DNA of 64,000 nucleotides from Siminovitchia terrae (lineage in GTDB: Bacteria > Bacillota > Bacilli > Bacillales > Bacillaceae_C), in contig NZ_QYTW02000016.1 in NCBI RefSeq assembly GCF_003605405.2, positions 1-64,000 of the forward strand, read 5' to 3'. The notes beneath the pieces are model-generated. The model did not search any database, had not been told where the DNA came from, and saw only the letters and a list, made by a program, of their open reading frames with translations. Each line of letters opens with the position of its first letter. Within the stretch, counting starts at the first letter, position 1. The translations under genes were made by a program, and so were the position numbers. Below, one piece after another: positions 3,038 to 60,353 of the stretch.

Positions 3038-4435
3038 ATGAATTTTAATTCACTGGATGTCATCATTATGATTGCATATCTATTAATGTTAGTTATTATC
3101 GGTGTGATCGGCGCAAGACGAGCCAAGTCACCAGAAGACTATGTGCTGGCTGGAAGAAACTTGGGGTTTTTTATGTATTTCGGCTGTCTTGGCGCCGTTA
3201 TTTTGGGCGGCGCCTCTACAATCGGTGCTACCAAACTTGGGTATGAATTTGGAGTTTCAGGCATGTGGCTTGTTGTCATGCTCGGTTTAGGAATTATGCT
3301 TTTAGGAGTTTTCCTTGCGAAACGCATTTCGAAACTTTCAGTAATGACGATCAGTGAATATCTCAGCAAACGTTTTGGCGTTGAAGTGGGGCTTGTCAGT
3401 GCATTGATTGCAGCGACATACGCCATGATGGTATCCGTTACGCAAGTGATCGGGATGGGAACCATTTTAAATGTTCTGCTTGACTGGAATTTAAGCGTTT
3501 CAATGTTGGTTGGCGGAGGAATCGTATTGTTTTATACAATCCTCGGTGGCATGTGGTCTGTTACTATGACTGACATTGTGCAGTTTGTTATTAAGACAGT
3601 TGGTATTTTCTTCATCATGCTCCCCTTGGGAATATCCAAAGCCGGTGGCTGGGCCGGCTTGCAAGCCAATTTACCTGATACTTATTTTAGTTTCTCAGGA
3701 ATCGGTGGTCACCAAATCTTCAAGTATTTCTTATTATTTGCACTTGGAATGGTAGTGGCTCAAGATATTTGGCAGCGGATTTTAACTGCAAAAACAATTA
3801 AGATTGCAAGAGCGGGGACAGTTGCTGCCGGATTGTACAGTTTATTTTATGGACTTGCAGTTGCAATTATCGGAATGTGTGCGTTTGTTATTGTGCCTAA
3901 TTTAGGGGATACTCAAAATGCATTTGCTAGCATGGCGGTTACGATATTACCATCAGGGGTGCTGGGCCTGGTTATTGCGGCAGTTGTTTCGGCATTGATG
4001 TCCACCGCTTCCGGGACTTTGCTGGCTTCTTCAACCTTAATTTCAAATGATATTATTAAGCGCTTTTTCAAAAAAGATGTGACGGATAAACAATATTTGA
4101 AGCTTTCAAGAATAGTGACAACAGTGATCGGAATTTTGACGATCGTTTGTGCTCTTTGGATTCAAGATGTTCTTGTGGCTCTTGATGTAGCCTACGCTGT
4201 ATTGTCAGGAGGAATTTTTGCTCCGGTGATTTTGGGGCTATTTTGGAAAAGGGCCACTGGAAAAGCAGCGTTCTATGCGATTATTGCAAGTTCAATCGTG
4301 ATACTGGCCGGCCTTGCCATTCAAGGAATTACAGCAACGACGCCGATTATCTATGGTATTGCTGTCAGCTTTGTCGTCATGATTGTTGTTTCGCTTGCAA
4401 CGAAACAAAGTGACGAGTTAAATATTGCTTCTTAA
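3038..4435 (+). CDS. Sodium:solute symporter (SSS family)
   Basis: This integral membrane protein has 465 residues and about 13 hydrophobic segments and fits the SSS family (PutP/PanF relatives). It would import a solute with Na+. The N-terminus has the typical first helix followed by a GARRAKSPEDYVLAGRNLG segment, and LGGMWSVTMTDIVQF is a family-like stretch. I place the start at ATG 3038 after GGGAGGAAGTCGG; an upstream in-frame ATG would overlap the ureohydrolase. It is 28 bp behind the ureohydrolase, so the two are probably one sigma-54-dependent unit and the cargo is probably the guanidino substrate or a precursor. Confidence 0.9.
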   Translation: MNFNSLDVIIMIAYLLMLVIIGVIGARRAKSPEDYVLAGRNLGFFMYFGCLGAVILGGASTIGATKLGYEFGVSGMWLVVMLGLGIMLLGVFLAKRISKLSVMTISEYLSKRFGVEVGLVSALIAATYAMMVSVTQVIGMGTILNVLLDWNLSVSMLVGGGIVLFYTILGGMWSVTMTDIVQFVIKTVGIFFIMLPLGISKAGGWAGLQANLPDTYFSFSGIGGHQIFKYFLLFALGMVVAQDIWQRILTAKTIKIARAGTVAAGLYSLFYGLAVAIIGMCAFVIVPNLGDTQNAFASMAVTILPSGVLGLVIAAVVSALMSTASGTLLASSTLISNDIIKRFFKKDVTDKQYLKLSRIVTTVIGILTIVCALWIQDVLVALDVAYAVLSGGIFAPVILGLFWKRATGKAAFYAIIASSIVILAGLAIQGITATTPIIYGIAVSFVVMIVVSLATKQSDELNIAS

Positions 4436-6766: not shown

Positions 6767-6990
6767 TGTCTAACTGCGCTGTACAGGAAGTACAAGTGCA
6801 AGCGAAGCGACAAGACGTCGCGTTCTGAACCAGCCGCTGTACAGGAAGTACAAGTGCAAGCGAAGCGACAGGATGTCGCGTTCTGAGCCAGCCAGCATCT
6901 AGCCTCGTAAGGATCAAGTTGATGAATGAAGGACTGCCTCCTCTAAAATTGTCTTGTTTGCCCGCGCTGACTAGCCGTTTCCGCTTTTTT
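6767..6990 (+). repeat. Intergenic repeat element with two 58-bp units
   Basis: The element begins TGTCTAACTGCG and contains two tandem 58-bp units (6778-6835 and 6836-6893). It ends with a unique tail that carries AAGGATCAAGTTGATGAA, GACTGCCTCCTC and CCGCTTTTTT. The same start, units and tail occur at 23774-24533, where the 58-mer is expanded to ten copies. Each unit has two small hairpins, GTAC..GTAC and GCGACA..TGTCGC. It fills the gap downstream of the minus-strand catabolic operon, so its transcript could also form the operon's 3' end. The style recalls the bcr-type intergenic repeats of Bacillus; I cannot assign it to a named family. Confidence 0.8.
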
Positions 6991-23717: not shown

Positions 23718-23773
23718 GAAAGATAAGAAAGTATAAAATTGATGGAATATTTTGTTCAAATTAAGATTTTATA

Positions 23774-24533
23774 TGTCTAGCTACGACGTACAGGAAGTAC
23801 TAGTGCAAGCGAAGCGACAGGATGTCGCGCCCAGAGCCTGCCGACGTACAGGAAGTACTAGTGCAAGCGAAGTGACAGGATGTCGCGCCCTGAGCCTGCC
23901 GACGTACAGGAAGTACTAGTGCAAGCGAAGTGACAGGATGTCGCGCCCTGAGCCTGCCGACGTACAGGAAGTACTAGTGCAAGCGAAGTGACAGGATGTC
24001 GCGCCCTGAGCCTGCCGACGTACAGGAAGTACTAGTGCAAGCGAAGTGACAGGATGTCGCGCCCTGAGCCTGCCGACGTACAGGAAGTACTAGTGCAAGC
24101 GAAGTGACAGGATGTCGCGCCCTGAGCCTGCCGACGTACAGGAAGTACTAGTGCAAGCGAAGTGACAGGATGTCGCGCCCTGAGCCTGCCGACGTACAGG
24201 AAGTACTAGTGCAAGCGAAGTGACAGGATGTCGCGCCCTGAGCCTGCCGACGTACAGGAAGTACTAGTGCAAGCGAAGTGACAGGATGTCGCGCCCTGAG
24301 CCTGCCGACGTACAGGAAGTACTAGTGCAAGCGAAGTGACAGGATGTCGCGCCCTGAGCCTGCCGATGTACAGGAATTACTAGTGCAAGCGAAGCAAAAG
24401 GATGTGGCAGCTTGAGGAGGCCAGGCGCCATCGGCGCAAGGATCAAGTCAAATTGCTGTGGTGGCTGAAGAACTGCCTCCTCGCAATTTGCCTTGTGCTT
24501 GTCGTCTAAGGCTAAGCGCCTTGCGCTTTTCTT
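23774..24533 (+). repeat. Minisatellite: ten 58-bp units in an intergenic repeat
   Basis: The array starts at 23784 with units every 58 bp (23842, 23900 and so on to 24306), and a decayed eleventh unit begins at 24364. Units 2-10 are virtually identical; unit 1 differs by GCGACAGG for GTGACAGG and CCAGAGCC for CCTGAGCC. Each unit holds GTACAGGAAGTAC and a hairpin G(C/T)GACA..TGTCGC in which the T variant still pairs in RNA through G-U. Flanks TGTCTAGCT on the left and AAGGATCAAGT, ACTGCCTCCTCG, AGCGCCTTGCGCTTTTC on the right match the element at 6767-6990, which has two units. No spacers, so it is not a CRISPR. Confidence 0.92.
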
Positions 24534-28800: not shown

Positions 28801-28989
28801 ATTTTGGCGGGAACCTTTGCGGCCATGCTGCCTTCGGGCGTTCTGTCGATGCTGCAGATTGCCACTTTAGTATTGTCTGGTCTATTATTCTATGCCTTGG
28901 TAATTTTACCGCTGTTCGTTCCAGTGATGATCAACATGCTGGGCAAAGCGAATTGGTGGCCGTTTATTGTTAGAAAAAGTGATGAGTAA
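25858..28989 (+). CDS. MMPL/RND-type membrane transporter with long coiled stalk
   Basis: This large (1043 residues) RND-superfamily protein of the MMPL group has an N-terminal helix, an extracytoplasmic domain (about 30-175) and a block of helices (about 180-345). A very long polar region follows (about 375-855), and a second helix block ends it (about 860-1035). GVGTDYCILLLSRYKEQ and ALGVDYSIFLMDRFSEYKE carry the Asp-Tyr pairs expected for the proton relay. The part from about 475 to 775 is full of S/T-G-x-x-x-L-x-x-G repeats, as in YhgE/Pip-type stalks. Export of a lipid or hydrophobic drug is likely; the MarR partner agrees. Confidence 0.9.
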   Translation: MRSILRFRWVVLALWIVMAVALIIKSPDMNQLVRDKGQLTIADEYPSSVASDIIAKHSSKEEGTEAFIVVFHDDKKLSGSQHKSIQAAISNLEKKKSELGINGITSHFDDKELESQLVSKDGNTVIALIDVKMDGREVKDVRDPLEKEIKIDNVDTYMTGNSLISEDVIISSEKGLKKTEVITVIFIMVVLLLVFRSAVAPFVPLLTVGMTYLVSSTVVAFLVDGLNFPVSNFTQTFMVAVLFGVGTDYCILLLSRYKEQLSAGYDIPSAIVTTYKTAGKTVIYSAVAVMIGFASIGFATFKLYQSAVGVAVGVFVLIIALFTLVPFFMMTLKKALFWPVKKDISHKESRIWGWMGNLAITRPLIALGIVAAFTVPLLVSYDGDLSFNSLDEIGDEYESVKGFNIVADSFGPGEIMPIQVVLENDDSMKSKEYFTLIESIGNDLDKLDHVEKVRSVMRPTGDKIEEIYVKKQADELGKGIGEGNEGISKIKDGLNEAASSIKDSKPELEKATAGISDLTAGTKELQSGVGQLQNALSEIENGIRQGTSGAGELKKGVAQASSQAAELQSGTRELLNGYKEAQAGLEQLISEYGKVPAGLEDAQQQLAGLGEPLGKLVQNHPEIAGDPNFADIQSRVESATKQVAIAGGTVSALNGELGKVQSGLATANGHLSDVVEGLGQFSSGMKEVEKGLGELESGLGQATSGQHQVVEKIPAIAAGMGEIASGQEKLQSGFGQMGDQLNQLGDGLSQSSDGLGKIEDGFGEAKKHLDDIAEDTDLQQSGIYIPDQLLTDKDFQRVYDIYMSADGKMTTMDIVLDSNPYAKQSMEMVSNIEDTIAKATKDTKLEQANVGIGGVTSMNRDLESMSDLDYTKTVTFMMIGIVLILVVLLRSLVMPVYIIASLLLTYYSSISMTEVIFVNILGYPGINWVTPFFGFVILIALGVDYSIFLMDRFSEYKELDVKAGIILAMKNMGTVIMSAAVILAGTFAAMLPSGVLSMLQIATLVLSGLLFYALVILPLFVPVMINMLGKANWWPFIVRKSDE

Positions 28990-28998
28990 GGAGGGAAA

Positions 28999-29028
28999 AG
29001 CTGGGAGGCGTTTGCTTCCCGGCTTTTT
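28999..29028 (+). terminator. Terminator of the MarR-MMPL operon
   Basis: AGCTGGGA and TCCCGGCT with GGC/GTTTGC in between form the stem, followed by TTTTTTAC. Confidence 0.85.
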
Positions 29029-29080
29029 TACAGTGCATTCCCTGTAGTTTGCGTCTGGATTGCAGCACTTACTTTCCATA

Positions 29081-29520
29081 TTTACGAATACTCTTGAGAA
29101 TTGGAAAATACTCTTGAGATTCAGAGAATACTCTTGAGAATTGGAAAATACTCTTGAGAATTGGAAAATACTCTTGAGAATTGGAAAATACTCTTGGGAA
29201 TTGGAGAATACTCTTGAGAATTGGAAAATATTCTTGGGAATTGGAAAATACTCTTGGGAATTGGAAAATACTCTTGAGAATTGGAAAATACTCTTGGGAA
29301 TTGGAGAATACTCTTGAGAATTGGAAAATATTCTTGGGAATTGGAAAATACTCTTGGGAATTGGAAAATACTCTTGAGAATTGGAAAATACTCTTGGGAA
29401 TTGGAGAATACTCTTGAGAATTGGAAAATATTCTTGGGAATTGGAAAATACTCTTGGGAATTGGAAAATACTCTTGAGAATTGGAAAATACTCTTGGGAA
29501 TTGGAGAATACTCTTGAGAA
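29081..29520. repeat. 22-unit, 20-bp tandem repeat with 100-bp higher order
   Basis: Units of TTGGAAAATACTCTTGAGAA follow each other without gaps from 29081 to 29520; the first two are degenerate. Variant units (GAGAA or GGGAA end, TTGGAG start, ATATTC) recur in fixed order, making a 100-bp super-unit. Blocks 29181-29280, 29281-29380 and 29381-29480 are identical, with 40 bp more of a fourth. This shows expansion in steps of five units. The array lies between two convergent MMPL transporter genes. It is open in some frames (60-bp cycle) but has no ribosome site, so I do not call a protein. Confidence 0.95.
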
Positions 29521-29660
29521 TTGGTAAATGCCCTGAAAGTACTCTTAAAACTAAAAAATACTCACGAAATAAAAAGCCCCCTCTACAACAGTAAACTTAT
29601 TGCATGGCTTGATTCGGATTACGGAAACGGGTTGGAATGGATTCCAAAAATATATATACA

Positions 29661-31862: not shown

Positions 31863-32059
31863 TTTAACTTCATTCAGCAGAAACCCCCCACTTCTGTAAG
31901 TGGTGAGATGAATGCATATTGGTATTCCCATTTAGTGGGGGGGTCAAACCCCGGCTGAATAAAGTTAAAGCCTCCGGCGGATACCACAGATTTTTAGAGG
32001 AAATTTATCGAGCGGAGCTCGATAAAATCTGGGCGCAAATACGCCAAGGCGCATTTGAT
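31863..32059 (+). mobile_element. Structured ~190-bp repeat, copy 1
   Basis: This copy of a dispersed element starts at the target TTTAA, then CTTCATTCAGC, and ends CGCATTTGAT. It can fold into hairpins: the left imperfect CATTCA..TGAATG arm with CCCACTT/AAGTGG inside, a second with CCCC..GGGG-type arms ending in GGCTGAAT, TTATCGAGC-GGA-GCTCGATAA, and CAAATACGCC/GGCGCATTTG. It lies 25 bp upstream of the minus-strand MMPL start, in the promoter region of that gene. No protein is encoded. Confidence 0.85.
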
Positions 32060-32211: not shown

Positions 32212-32405
32212 TTTAACTTCATTCAGCAGAAGTCTCCCACTTCTGTAAGTGGTGAGATGAATGCCTATTGGTATTCCATTCAGCGGGGGTTCAAACCCCG
32301 CTGAATAAAGTTAAAGCCTCCGGCGGATGCCACAGATTTTTAGAGGAAACTTATCGAGCTCCGCTCGATAAAATCTGGGCGCAAATACGTCAAGGCGCAT
32401 TTGAT
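32212..32405 (+). mobile_element. Structured ~190-bp repeat, copy 2
   Basis: It has the same ends as copy 1 and the same orientation. The third hairpin reads TTATCGAGC-TCC-GCTCGATAA, so its loop is the reverse complement of the GGA loop in the other copies. A perfect stem ATTCAGCGGGG/CCCCGCTGAAT is present. It lies 100 bp upstream of the sigma-54 promoter of the aminotransferase gene. Confidence 0.87.
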
Positions 32406-36165: not shown

Positions 36166-36361
36166 TTTAACTTCATTCAGCAGAAATCTCGCATTTCAGT
36201 AAGTGGTGAGATGAATGCCTATTGGTATTCCATTCAGCGGGGGTTCAAACCCCGGCTGAATAAAATCAAAGCCTCCGACGGATGCTACAGATTTTCAGAG
36301 GAAATTAATCAAGCGGATCTTGATAAAATCTGGGCGCAAATACGCCAAGGCGCAATTTGAT
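36166..36361 (+). mobile_element. Structured ~190-bp repeat, copy 3
   Basis: Same ends and orientation as the other copies, with more substitutions (CTCGCATTTCAG for CTCCCACTTCTG, AATCAAGCGGATCTTGAT in the third hairpin, CGCAATTTGAT at the end). It is inserted between the SulP promoter region and the sspO-like gene. It is the most diverged copy in the third stem and so perhaps older. Confidence 0.83.
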
Positions 36362-38579: not shown

Positions 38580-38646
38580 TTTAACTTCATTCAGCATTCA
38601 TCTCACCACTTACAGAAGTGGGAGACTTCTGCTGAATGAAGTTAAA
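38580..38646 (-). mobile_element. 67-bp left-end fragment of the structured repeat
   Basis: Positions 38594-38646 are the reverse complement of the first 53 bases of copy 2 (GCATTCATCTCACCACTTAC ... GAAGTTAAA). They are preceded by TTTAACTTCATTCA, so the piece is bounded by the perfect inverted repeat TTTAACTTCATTCAGC/GCTGAATGAAGTTAAA. It contains only the left hairpin and is the only copy in the opposite orientation. It directly follows a terminator hairpin. Confidence 0.85.
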
Positions 38647-42023: not shown

Positions 42024-42202
42024 TTTAACTTCATTCAGCAGCAATCTCCCACTTCTGTAAGTGATGAGATGAATGCATTTGGTATTCCATTCAGTGGGGG
42101 TTCAAACCCGGCTGAATAAAGTCAAAGCCTCCGGTGGATGCCACAGATTTTATCGAGCGGAGCTCGATAATCTGGGCGCAAATACGCCAAGGAGCATTTG
42201 AT
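42024..42202 (+). mobile_element. Structured ~190-bp repeat, copy 4
   Basis: Same ends and orientation, 179 bp. It is shorter because the third stem lacks the bulged stretch TTAGAGGAAATT found in other copies, leaving AGATTTTATCGAGC-GGA-GCTCGATAATCT. It lies 70 bp behind the amidohydrolase gene. Confidence 0.85.
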
Positions 42203-56589: not shown

Positions 56590-57164
56590 TAGGGCTATCA
56601 AACCGGCAGGGGTCCGGGGGCATGCGCTGTTGCGCTGAAAAATATTGAAATTATTGAAAGAGAGAATTTGGTGGAAAATTCTCGATTGATGGGAGAAGAA
56701 CTTTTAACTTCATTCAGCAGAAGTCTCCCACTTCTGTAAGTGGTGAGATGAATGCCTATTGGTATTCCATTCAGTGGGGTTTCAACCCCCGGCTGAATAA
56801 AGTCAAAGCCTCCGGCGGATGCCACAGATTTTCAGAGGAAATTTATCGAGCGGAGCTCGATAAAATCTGGGCGTACATACGCCAAGGCGCATTTGATAAG
56901 GATTATAGGTGCTTGAAAGTGAATTTGATGTATTAGCTGACGGGCGGCCGTTGGGCTTACTCAGCGCGATAGAGTTTGATAAGGATAGGAAAACAGGAGA
57001 AAGGTTTGAAACACCTAAAGCTCCGCAAGTAGTTGAGATGGCAGGAAAACTAGGTCTTATCTGCTGGTCGGTCACATACGTTGGCACCGCCGCCTCTCAT
57101 TATTAATAAGCAAGTGGAAGAAATTATTGGTATATTACGCAGAAATATTGAGAGGGTTATTTGA
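56590..57164 (+). pseudogene. Class III aminotransferase remnant split by a mobile repeat
   Basis: Two fragments of one gene flank the repeat at 56708-56897. The left (to 56707) reads GPGACAVALKNIEIIERENL then VENSRLMGEELL. The right reads VLESEFDVLADGRPLGLLSA, IEFDKDRKTGERF, VEMAGKLGLICWSVTYVG and, after a frameshift near 57085, PPPLIINKQVEEIIGILRRN to a TGA at 57164. Both match the C-terminal third of omega-aminotransferases (ACAxALxxIEIIExExL ... APPLIIxxxxxxEIIxIL). Joining TTTTAA to AAGG without the repeat gives GEELLKGL-stop-VLESEF in one frame. The N-terminal two thirds are missing. A separate intact class III enzyme is encoded at 32557. Confidence 0.82.
56703..56897 (+). mobile_element. 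Structured ~190-bp repeat, copy 5, inside a pseudogene
   Basis: The target TTTAA (56703-56707) is followed by the element proper, CTTCATTCAGC to CGCATTTGAT (56708-56897, 190 bp). All four hairpins are present. Because the host gene can be reconstructed, this copy defines both boundaries: TTTAA belongs to the target and no bases are duplicated. The element is complete and close to copies 1 and 2. Confidence 0.9.
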
Positions 57165-60159: not shown

Positions 60160-60353
60160 TTTAACTTCATTTAGAAGAAATCTCCTACTTCTGTAAATGG
60201 TGAGATGAAAGTATATTGGCATTCCATTCAGTGGGGGTCAAACCCCGGCTGAATAAAGTTAAAGCCTCCGGGGGATGCCACAGATTTTCAGAGGAAATTT
60301 ATCGAGCGGAGCTCGATAAAATCTAGGCGCAAATACGCCAAGGCGCATTTGAT
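60160..60353 (+). mobile_element. Structured ~190-bp repeat, copy 6
   Basis: Same orientation and ends. The left hairpin is more diverged (CATTTAGAAG, CTCCTACTTCTGTAAATGG, GAAAGTATATTGGC) while the right half is well kept (ATCGAGCGGAGCTCGAT). It is inserted 65 bp upstream of the amino-acid ABC operon, and a cre-like TTGAAAGCGTTTTAA abuts its left border. Confidence 0.85.

Follow-up and report, generated by a model that had tools for sequence, protein, structure and literature searches.

A 190-nt repeat in the genome of Siminovitchia terrae, very probably a non-autonomous PATE-like element of the IS200/IS605 type

The genome of Siminovitchia terrae contains, in hundreds of copies, a 190-nt repeat that is very probably a non-autonomous, PATE-like mobile DNA that depends in trans on a single-tyrosine HUH transposase of the IS200/IS605 type. 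The unit has defined ends and lies 3' of the sequence TTTAA, which is found on its left side only; no target duplication was observed at nine sites, and its insertions differ between related genomes. In addition, it folds back strongly as single-stranded DNA (ssDNA), and its copies are oriented along replication.

Sequence, copies, and uninterrupted sites of the repeat

The whole stretch of DNA analyzed, referred to here as the window, comprises 64,000 nt of contig NZ_QYTW02000016.1. In it, one copy of the mobile unit occupies positions 56708 to 56897, the flank being resumed by AAGG from 56898 (Table 1). The initial annotation had placed the two C-terminal halves of a class III aminotransferase on either side of this copy and had proposed that joining TTTAA to AAGG restores the codons. 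Both statements were borne out, since the joined flanks read GEELLKGL, a TAG, and VLESEF onward, with the frame continuing apart from that single TAG. The gene itself is a remnant, in which the N-terminal part is absent and the frame is lost later, and its recognition by Pfam was weak (PF00202 matched the left piece at 16.3 bits, under the cut-off of 30.5, and the right piece showed no match). It may have been dead before the unit was inserted. The protein adjoining the element had its nearest relatives in Bacillus sp. HF117_J1_D (89%), Siminovitchia fortis (87%), and S. fordii (84%).

The joined protein showed no gap at the junction when compared with its homologues at six loci, which belong to four related genomes; these homologues lie at other genomic places and do not represent the same locus. 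At the DNA level, the alignment spanned the junction at four of the six loci, in two of these by four bases only. No empty site was found for the copy at 56708 to 56897, because in named relatives the downstream gene, examined at nine loci, had no match to the aminotransferase piece within 4 kb.

Table 1. Features of the repeat and of its surroundings (window positions, unless a locus is named)
Feature	Position	Strand	Remark
TTTAA target	56703..56707	+	left side only
Mobile unit, 190 nt	56708..56897	+	
Left module	56708..56807	+	with TTTAA, foldback TTTAACTTCATTCAGC...GCTGAATAAAGTCAAA around three hairpins (centroid fold)
Right-module hairpin TTTATCGAGC/GCTCGATAAA	56842..56864	+	one pair A-T in 12/19 and T-A in 7/19 aligned elements
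Right end CGCATTTGAT	56888..56897	+	
Left piece of aminotransferase remnant (class III, decayed)	56593..56706	+	
Right piece of aminotransferase remnant	56898..57097	+	TAG at 56906-56908
Copy of unit, 192 nt	31868..32059	+	3' of TTTAA
Copy of unit, 189 nt	32217..32405	+	3' of TTTAA
Copy of unit, 191 nt	36171..36361	+	3' of TTTAA
Copy of unit, 174 nt	42029..42202	+	3' of TTTAA
Copy of unit, 189 nt	60165..60353	+	3' of TTTAA
Foldback, 57 nt, left-end sequence only	38585..38641	.	TTTAA on both strands; without right module
Nested RF01690	L187, 6101-6347		
Nested RF01690	L194, 3910-4156		
Nested RF01690	L195, 4130-4374		
Nested RF01690	L199, about 4208-4400		
Nested RF01690	L235		
Nested RF01690	L249		

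The occurrence of TTTAA at the left border of every copy and of unrelated bases at the right border, as originally described, holds for the window, where TTTAA precedes the five other longer copies and the 57-nt foldback, and largely for the genome-wide sample, where exact TTTAA was found to the left of 89 of 102 full copies, the other 13 having one- or two-base variants of it. For comparison, the per-base frequency of TTTAA is 0.0026. The right flank of the full copies showed no consensus except A+T richness (n = 102), while TTGAT was terminal in all 102, which had been selected for reaching model position 190. For its part, the region of the 57-nt foldback gave a single Rfam match, to mir-4081, which was discarded as spurious (25.7 bits versus a gathering threshold of 70). 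Matches stopping inside the left module were also seen at L121 (12367), L142 (10392), and L114 (15773), and in the first two of these loci a right-end piece comes next.

In the complete assembly (5.30 Mb in 68 contigs), the exact left 16-mer TTTAACTTCATTCAGC occurred 365 times and its backward control 0 times; only exact occurrences were counted, as allowing one mismatch also matches the inner inverted arm of each copy. Three estimates of the number of copies plus fragments, 543, 593, and 613 (∼540 to 610), were obtained from 41 stretches amounting to 0.86 Mb, or 16% of the genome, many of them placed at known copies; the estimate of 613 rests on 16 regularly placed stretches. At 190 nt per copy, the family would account arithmetically for ∼2% of the genome. 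Full copies were defined as those matching model positions 1 to 190 (106 such, of which 4 near stretch ends were dropped, as were partial copies). They were a median of 94% alike (n = 102), and 55 of the 102 measured exactly 190 nt.

A total of 130 distinct sites were compared with sampled loci of relatives, rather than with whole genomes. This comparison and a separate set of spanning alignments together gave nine sites at which the sequence of a relative ran through the junction, and a second TTTAA or leftover element bases were found at none of the nine, in agreement with the earlier claim that no target bases are duplicated on insertion. At three of these sites an intact TTTAA was joined directly to the right flank, namely, L010 versus genome G004 (exact join, 93% over 400 bp), L034 versus G002 (exact join, 87%), and L014 versus two G004 loci that are perhaps paralogues (exact join, 74 to 75%). 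At the remaining six the relative had no intact TTTAA at the junction, and small indels occurred. Thus, L032 in G003 (94% identical) was one base shorter and showed TTCGA, the target of L031 was TTTCA in G001, and L046, a 137-nt copy, showed TTTTA in G003, whereas the alignments for L110, L139, and the window copy at 60165 were weaker or gapped. A junction without TTTAA in a relative had been named beforehand as an outcome contrary to the proposed insertion; we read the six such cases as divergence.

More diverged uninterrupted counterparts of L010, without an intact TTTAA, were present in G001, G002, and G005, and at both L010 and L031 a decayed copy was found at the same base in G003. The filling of two sites at the same base in G003 indicates that insertions are inherited, and since sites filled in some relatives are uninterrupted in others, insertions also differ between species. 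The orthologous insertions in G003 contigs C17 (L151) and C36 (L152) look by eye more decayed than those in the window genome. For a random set of sites, most matches covered one side only, which presumably reflects the divergence of intergenic DNA. Two loci, L033 and L052, were left out of the spanning alignments, as there miscalled units of 21 nt had been matched repeat to repeat.

Classification of the unit and search for its transposase

Subterminal hairpins characterize the IS200/IS605 family. Features of the mechanism of that family that were found in the unit include its position 3' of a fixed target without duplication, the hairpins of its ssDNA, and its lagging-strand orientation (see below). 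The IS200/IS605 (HUH Y1) signature read in the initial annotation is therefore supported by TTTAA insertion without duplication, by the foldback, and by the replication-strand orientation. The mechanism fits, but a Y1 HUH TnpA gene is absent from the 190-nt unit, which has no room for it; since it lacks a transposase, the unit is not an IS but a non-autonomous PATE-like derivative. The strand carrying TTTAA and the element would be the transferred one, cut at TTTAA and 3' of the right-end TTGAT. The unit would leave as ssDNA from the lagging-strand template, and the excised strand would be pasted 3' of another exposed TTTAA.

The unit fits PATE because it has no coding capacity and its two ends (CTTCATTCAGC versus CGCATTTGAT) are not inverted repeats of each other, and it also shares with these elements the near-terminal palindromes and the absence of target duplication. 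In this it resembles the PATEs of Haloquadratum walsbyi, which are described as IS605-related, too short for a transposase, and of types >90% identical (PMC3119063). The numbers reported there are 177 and 194 copies in two archaeal strains, counting all families, whereas the estimate of ∼540 to 610 obtained here concerns one family; likewise, PATEs were tied to IS605 ends (PMC3119063), while no parent was seen here in 52 Y1/TnpB loci. With IS608 and ISDra2 the unit has in common a fixed target on the 5' side of its left end and the lack of duplication. It also shares the lagging-strand orientation described for them (PMC5371812); unlike them, the unit has no tnpA or tnpB inside, its target is TTTAA, and its right end is TTGAT. 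A review lists TTTAA, or in a second table TTYAA, as the TAM of the Anoxybacillus amylolyticus TnpB of ISAam1, and describes TAMs as linked to the respective insertion sequence (PMC12477157). Among open-licence papers, searched by words and not by sequence, no prior description of the repeat was found.

Four Y1 matches were obtained in the genome of S. terrae, corresponding to an open IS200-type TnpA (contig C12), an open REP-type TnpA (contig C13; NCBIfam, 70.9 bits, under the cut-off of 80), and two broken genes; the ends of the unit flank none of the four on both sides. The search for a parent covered the Y1 family in this genome, in five genus genomes, and in eleven others, as well as the TnpB family in this genome. 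An IS200/IS605 element with matching ends, the search for which had been proposed as a check, did not emerge from it, element ends on both sides of a Y1/TnpB gene being found at none of 52 loci from 15 of the 17 genomes; 17 of the 47 matches from one of the Y1 searches of related genomes lie outside these loci, and the hidden Markov model (HMM) of the element could miss short shared ends. The left ends of the TnpB loci L071 and L072 (AGAAGTCCCC...GTAAGTGGGGGATGAAT) looked similar by eye, the element HMM giving no match there, and L066 and L070 gave weak HMM matches (E 0.66). Inspected by eye, the IS200 element of this genome terminates in TTTTGAT, and two loci have TTGAT to its left; the resemblance of its right end to that of the unit is a hint only. 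Plasmid and phage records yielded no copy at E 1e-5.

Another reading, which we regard as unlikely, is that the unit is a REPIN-like element moved by the resident REP-type (RAYT) transposase and not by an IS200-type TnpA. Like the unit, REPINs are foldback DNA present in many copies, and they are associated with Y1 transposases, the RAYTs (PMC3116915). A RAYT-like gene is present in the genome of S. terrae, G003, G004, G025, and G127 have Y1 genes close to it in length and in Pfam score, and a diverged copy of the unit lies ∼1 kb from the RAYT-like Y1 gene in G003 and G004. However, the RAYT gene of S. terrae is flanked by a different repeat, GGGGTCAGACCCC, with the element not found within ∼1.5 kb, and G001 contains nine exact left ends, yet its Y1 matches are only broken or partial. 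Moreover, neither end of the element is GTAG, the tag described for REPs (PMC3733652), nor is the element composed of two inverted REPs. Neither the tag nor RAYT linkage, by which REPs and REPINs are recognized, thus characterizes the unit, which also differs from REPINs in its 190-nt length, its asymmetric ends, and its TTTAA target. The GGGGTCAGACCCC repeat of the RAYT-like gene (L063, C13:34702) also occurs in L049 and beside the G025 Y1 gene (L210).

Foldback and orientation along replication

When folded as ssDNA, the target plus the element reached −44.7 kcal/mol versus −21.1 for shuffles (z −7.6), and the centroid fold comprised a ∼100-nt left module and a right module, with a stem closing each. 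An alignment of 19 elements from seven genomes showed a mean column identity of 81%, with two-sided changes in 4 of 38 consensus pairs and an energy term of −0.17, so that covariation is modest. The seven elements with T-A at the clearest pair (Table 1) are those of G127 and G230; this pair sets a single family apart from the remainder of the order, which may reflect one event. The fold was strong on both strands, and this, together with the conservation across genomes, would also suit a unit kept as a functional RNA or terminator, whose orientation would be that of transcription.

This explanation is improbable in view of the orientation of the copies. In the 41 stretches (16% of the genome, repeats masked), 126 copies lay with the GC-skew leading strand and 8 against it, GC skew and coding bias agreeing in 39 of the 41; HMM matches of ≤40 bits had been dropped (10 of 144), and some stretches were placed at known copies, strand not being a criterion. 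Copies were then classified by their neighboring open reading frames (ORFs), called mechanically at ≥90 amino acids, for 121 of the 134 copies, the 13 without an ORF on both sides being dropped. Copies followed replication by 62 to 4 where both neighbors were leading-strand ORFs, by 42 to 2 where they were mixed, and by 10 to 1 where both were lagging-strand ORFs. Because the bias persists between lagging-strand ORFs, transcription does not explain the orientation; nor does target supply, since TTTAA is even on the two strands (2,136 versus 2,154). The insertion in a coding remnant and the absence of any Rfam family matching the 190-nt unit also argue against a functional RNA.

In other genomes, HMM matches with and against the leading strand numbered 8:1 in G001, 10:2 in G025, 4:1 in G230, 5:2 in G127, 4:0 in G040, and 3:0 in G205. 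Matches of <30 bits were dropped, as were three in stretches with skew of <0.03, and the counts are of HMM matches, some G040 and G127 copies being split into two. In the IS200/IS605 model, in which the TTTAA side marks the strand, the transferred strand is expected to be the lagging-strand template, with the sequence of the G-rich leading strand. For IS608 and ISDra2, the lagging-strand template is reported to be both the strand left on excision and the strand entered on insertion, the orientation of the family following replication; several other IS families, with transposases that bind the sliding clamp, are also orientation biased (PMC5371812). For its part, IS605 of H. hydrogeniformans showed no bias, with 10 of 22 tnpA genes on the leading strand (PMC7290912). 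The orientation bias alone is therefore not specific, given that other IS families show it and IS605 of H. hydrogeniformans does not. Accordingly, orientation along replication lends strong support to an IS200/IS605-type mechanism without being proof alone.

IS91-like elements also insert beside a short fixed motif without duplication. A rolling-circle IS91-like (HUH Y2) derivative would agree with the one-sided fixed target and the lack of duplication, but the structured modules at both sides resemble IS200/IS605, and we consider this origin very improbable. The replication-biased other IS families include DDE families. A MITE of a DDE transposon, to which the short length, high copy number, and foldback of the unit and the replication bias of some other IS families (PMC5371812) might point, is hardly credible, as neither terminal inverted repeats nor, at nine sites, target duplication was observed, and the fixed pentanucleotide is on the left only.

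Distribution of the family and nested Bacillaceae-1 motif

The family of repeats is not restricted to S. terrae. The left 16-mer was present in 4 of 6 genus, 6 of 34 family, and 10 of 397 order genomes (S. terrae included each time), its backward control occurring in 1 of the 397. G127, from another family of the order, contained 51 occurrences, and among the ten order genomes, all but G183 of which were inspected, G137, G199, and G385 had the 16-mer without the element.

In four genomes (G040, G127, G254, and G156), RF01690, the Bacillaceae-1 RNA, was found inside the arms of longer copies, at no fewer than two different positions of the element (Table 1). This is a separate, 67-position motif that does not belong to the 190-nt unit, and it has been rated certainly RNA and probably not cis-regulatory in Bacillaceae (PMC2864571). 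In L187 and L194 it seems to have taken the place of a portion of the arm and not to be a clean insertion. RF01690 is itself abundant, being detected in 78 of the 150 order genomes scanned, many of which had at least 31 candidates. When 19 RF01690 loci were inspected, one per genome, 3 lay in the element (HMM) and 4 more (L233, L240, L241, and L248) adjoined other TCAGTGGGG-like palindromes (by eye), the rest being elsewhere. Haloarchaeal SMR-A elements are described as targeting PATE palindromes (PMC3119063), and we tentatively raise the possibility that Bacillaceae-1 RNA is a small mobile repeat that settles in the arms of single-strand transposons, a bacterial counterpart of SMR-A.

The window itself contains an RF01690 match at 6838 to 6903 (minus strand). 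Two tandem arrays were also noticed in it, one of 58-nt units at 23767 to 24480 (minus strand), with about ten similar two-hairpin units (GCGACATCCTGTC / GTACTTCCTGTAC), and one of ∼30 units of 20 nt at 28986 to 29625.

If the proposal on Bacillaceae-1 RNA were true, much of a catalogued RNA family would be mobile DNA riding IS200/IS605-type elements, transcribed or not, and such mobility would not contradict its rating as certainly RNA. The repeat described here constitutes a family without a matched Rfam entry that is present in other families of the order, and it raises the question of whether either of the open resident HUH transposases moves DNA with ends that are not its own. Gene-free insertions by the hundreds make it possible to read single-strand transposition at replication forks across the whole genome, a record in which the TTTAA side fixes the transferred strand and the resulting strand prediction holds by 126 to 8 in the sampled part of the genome.
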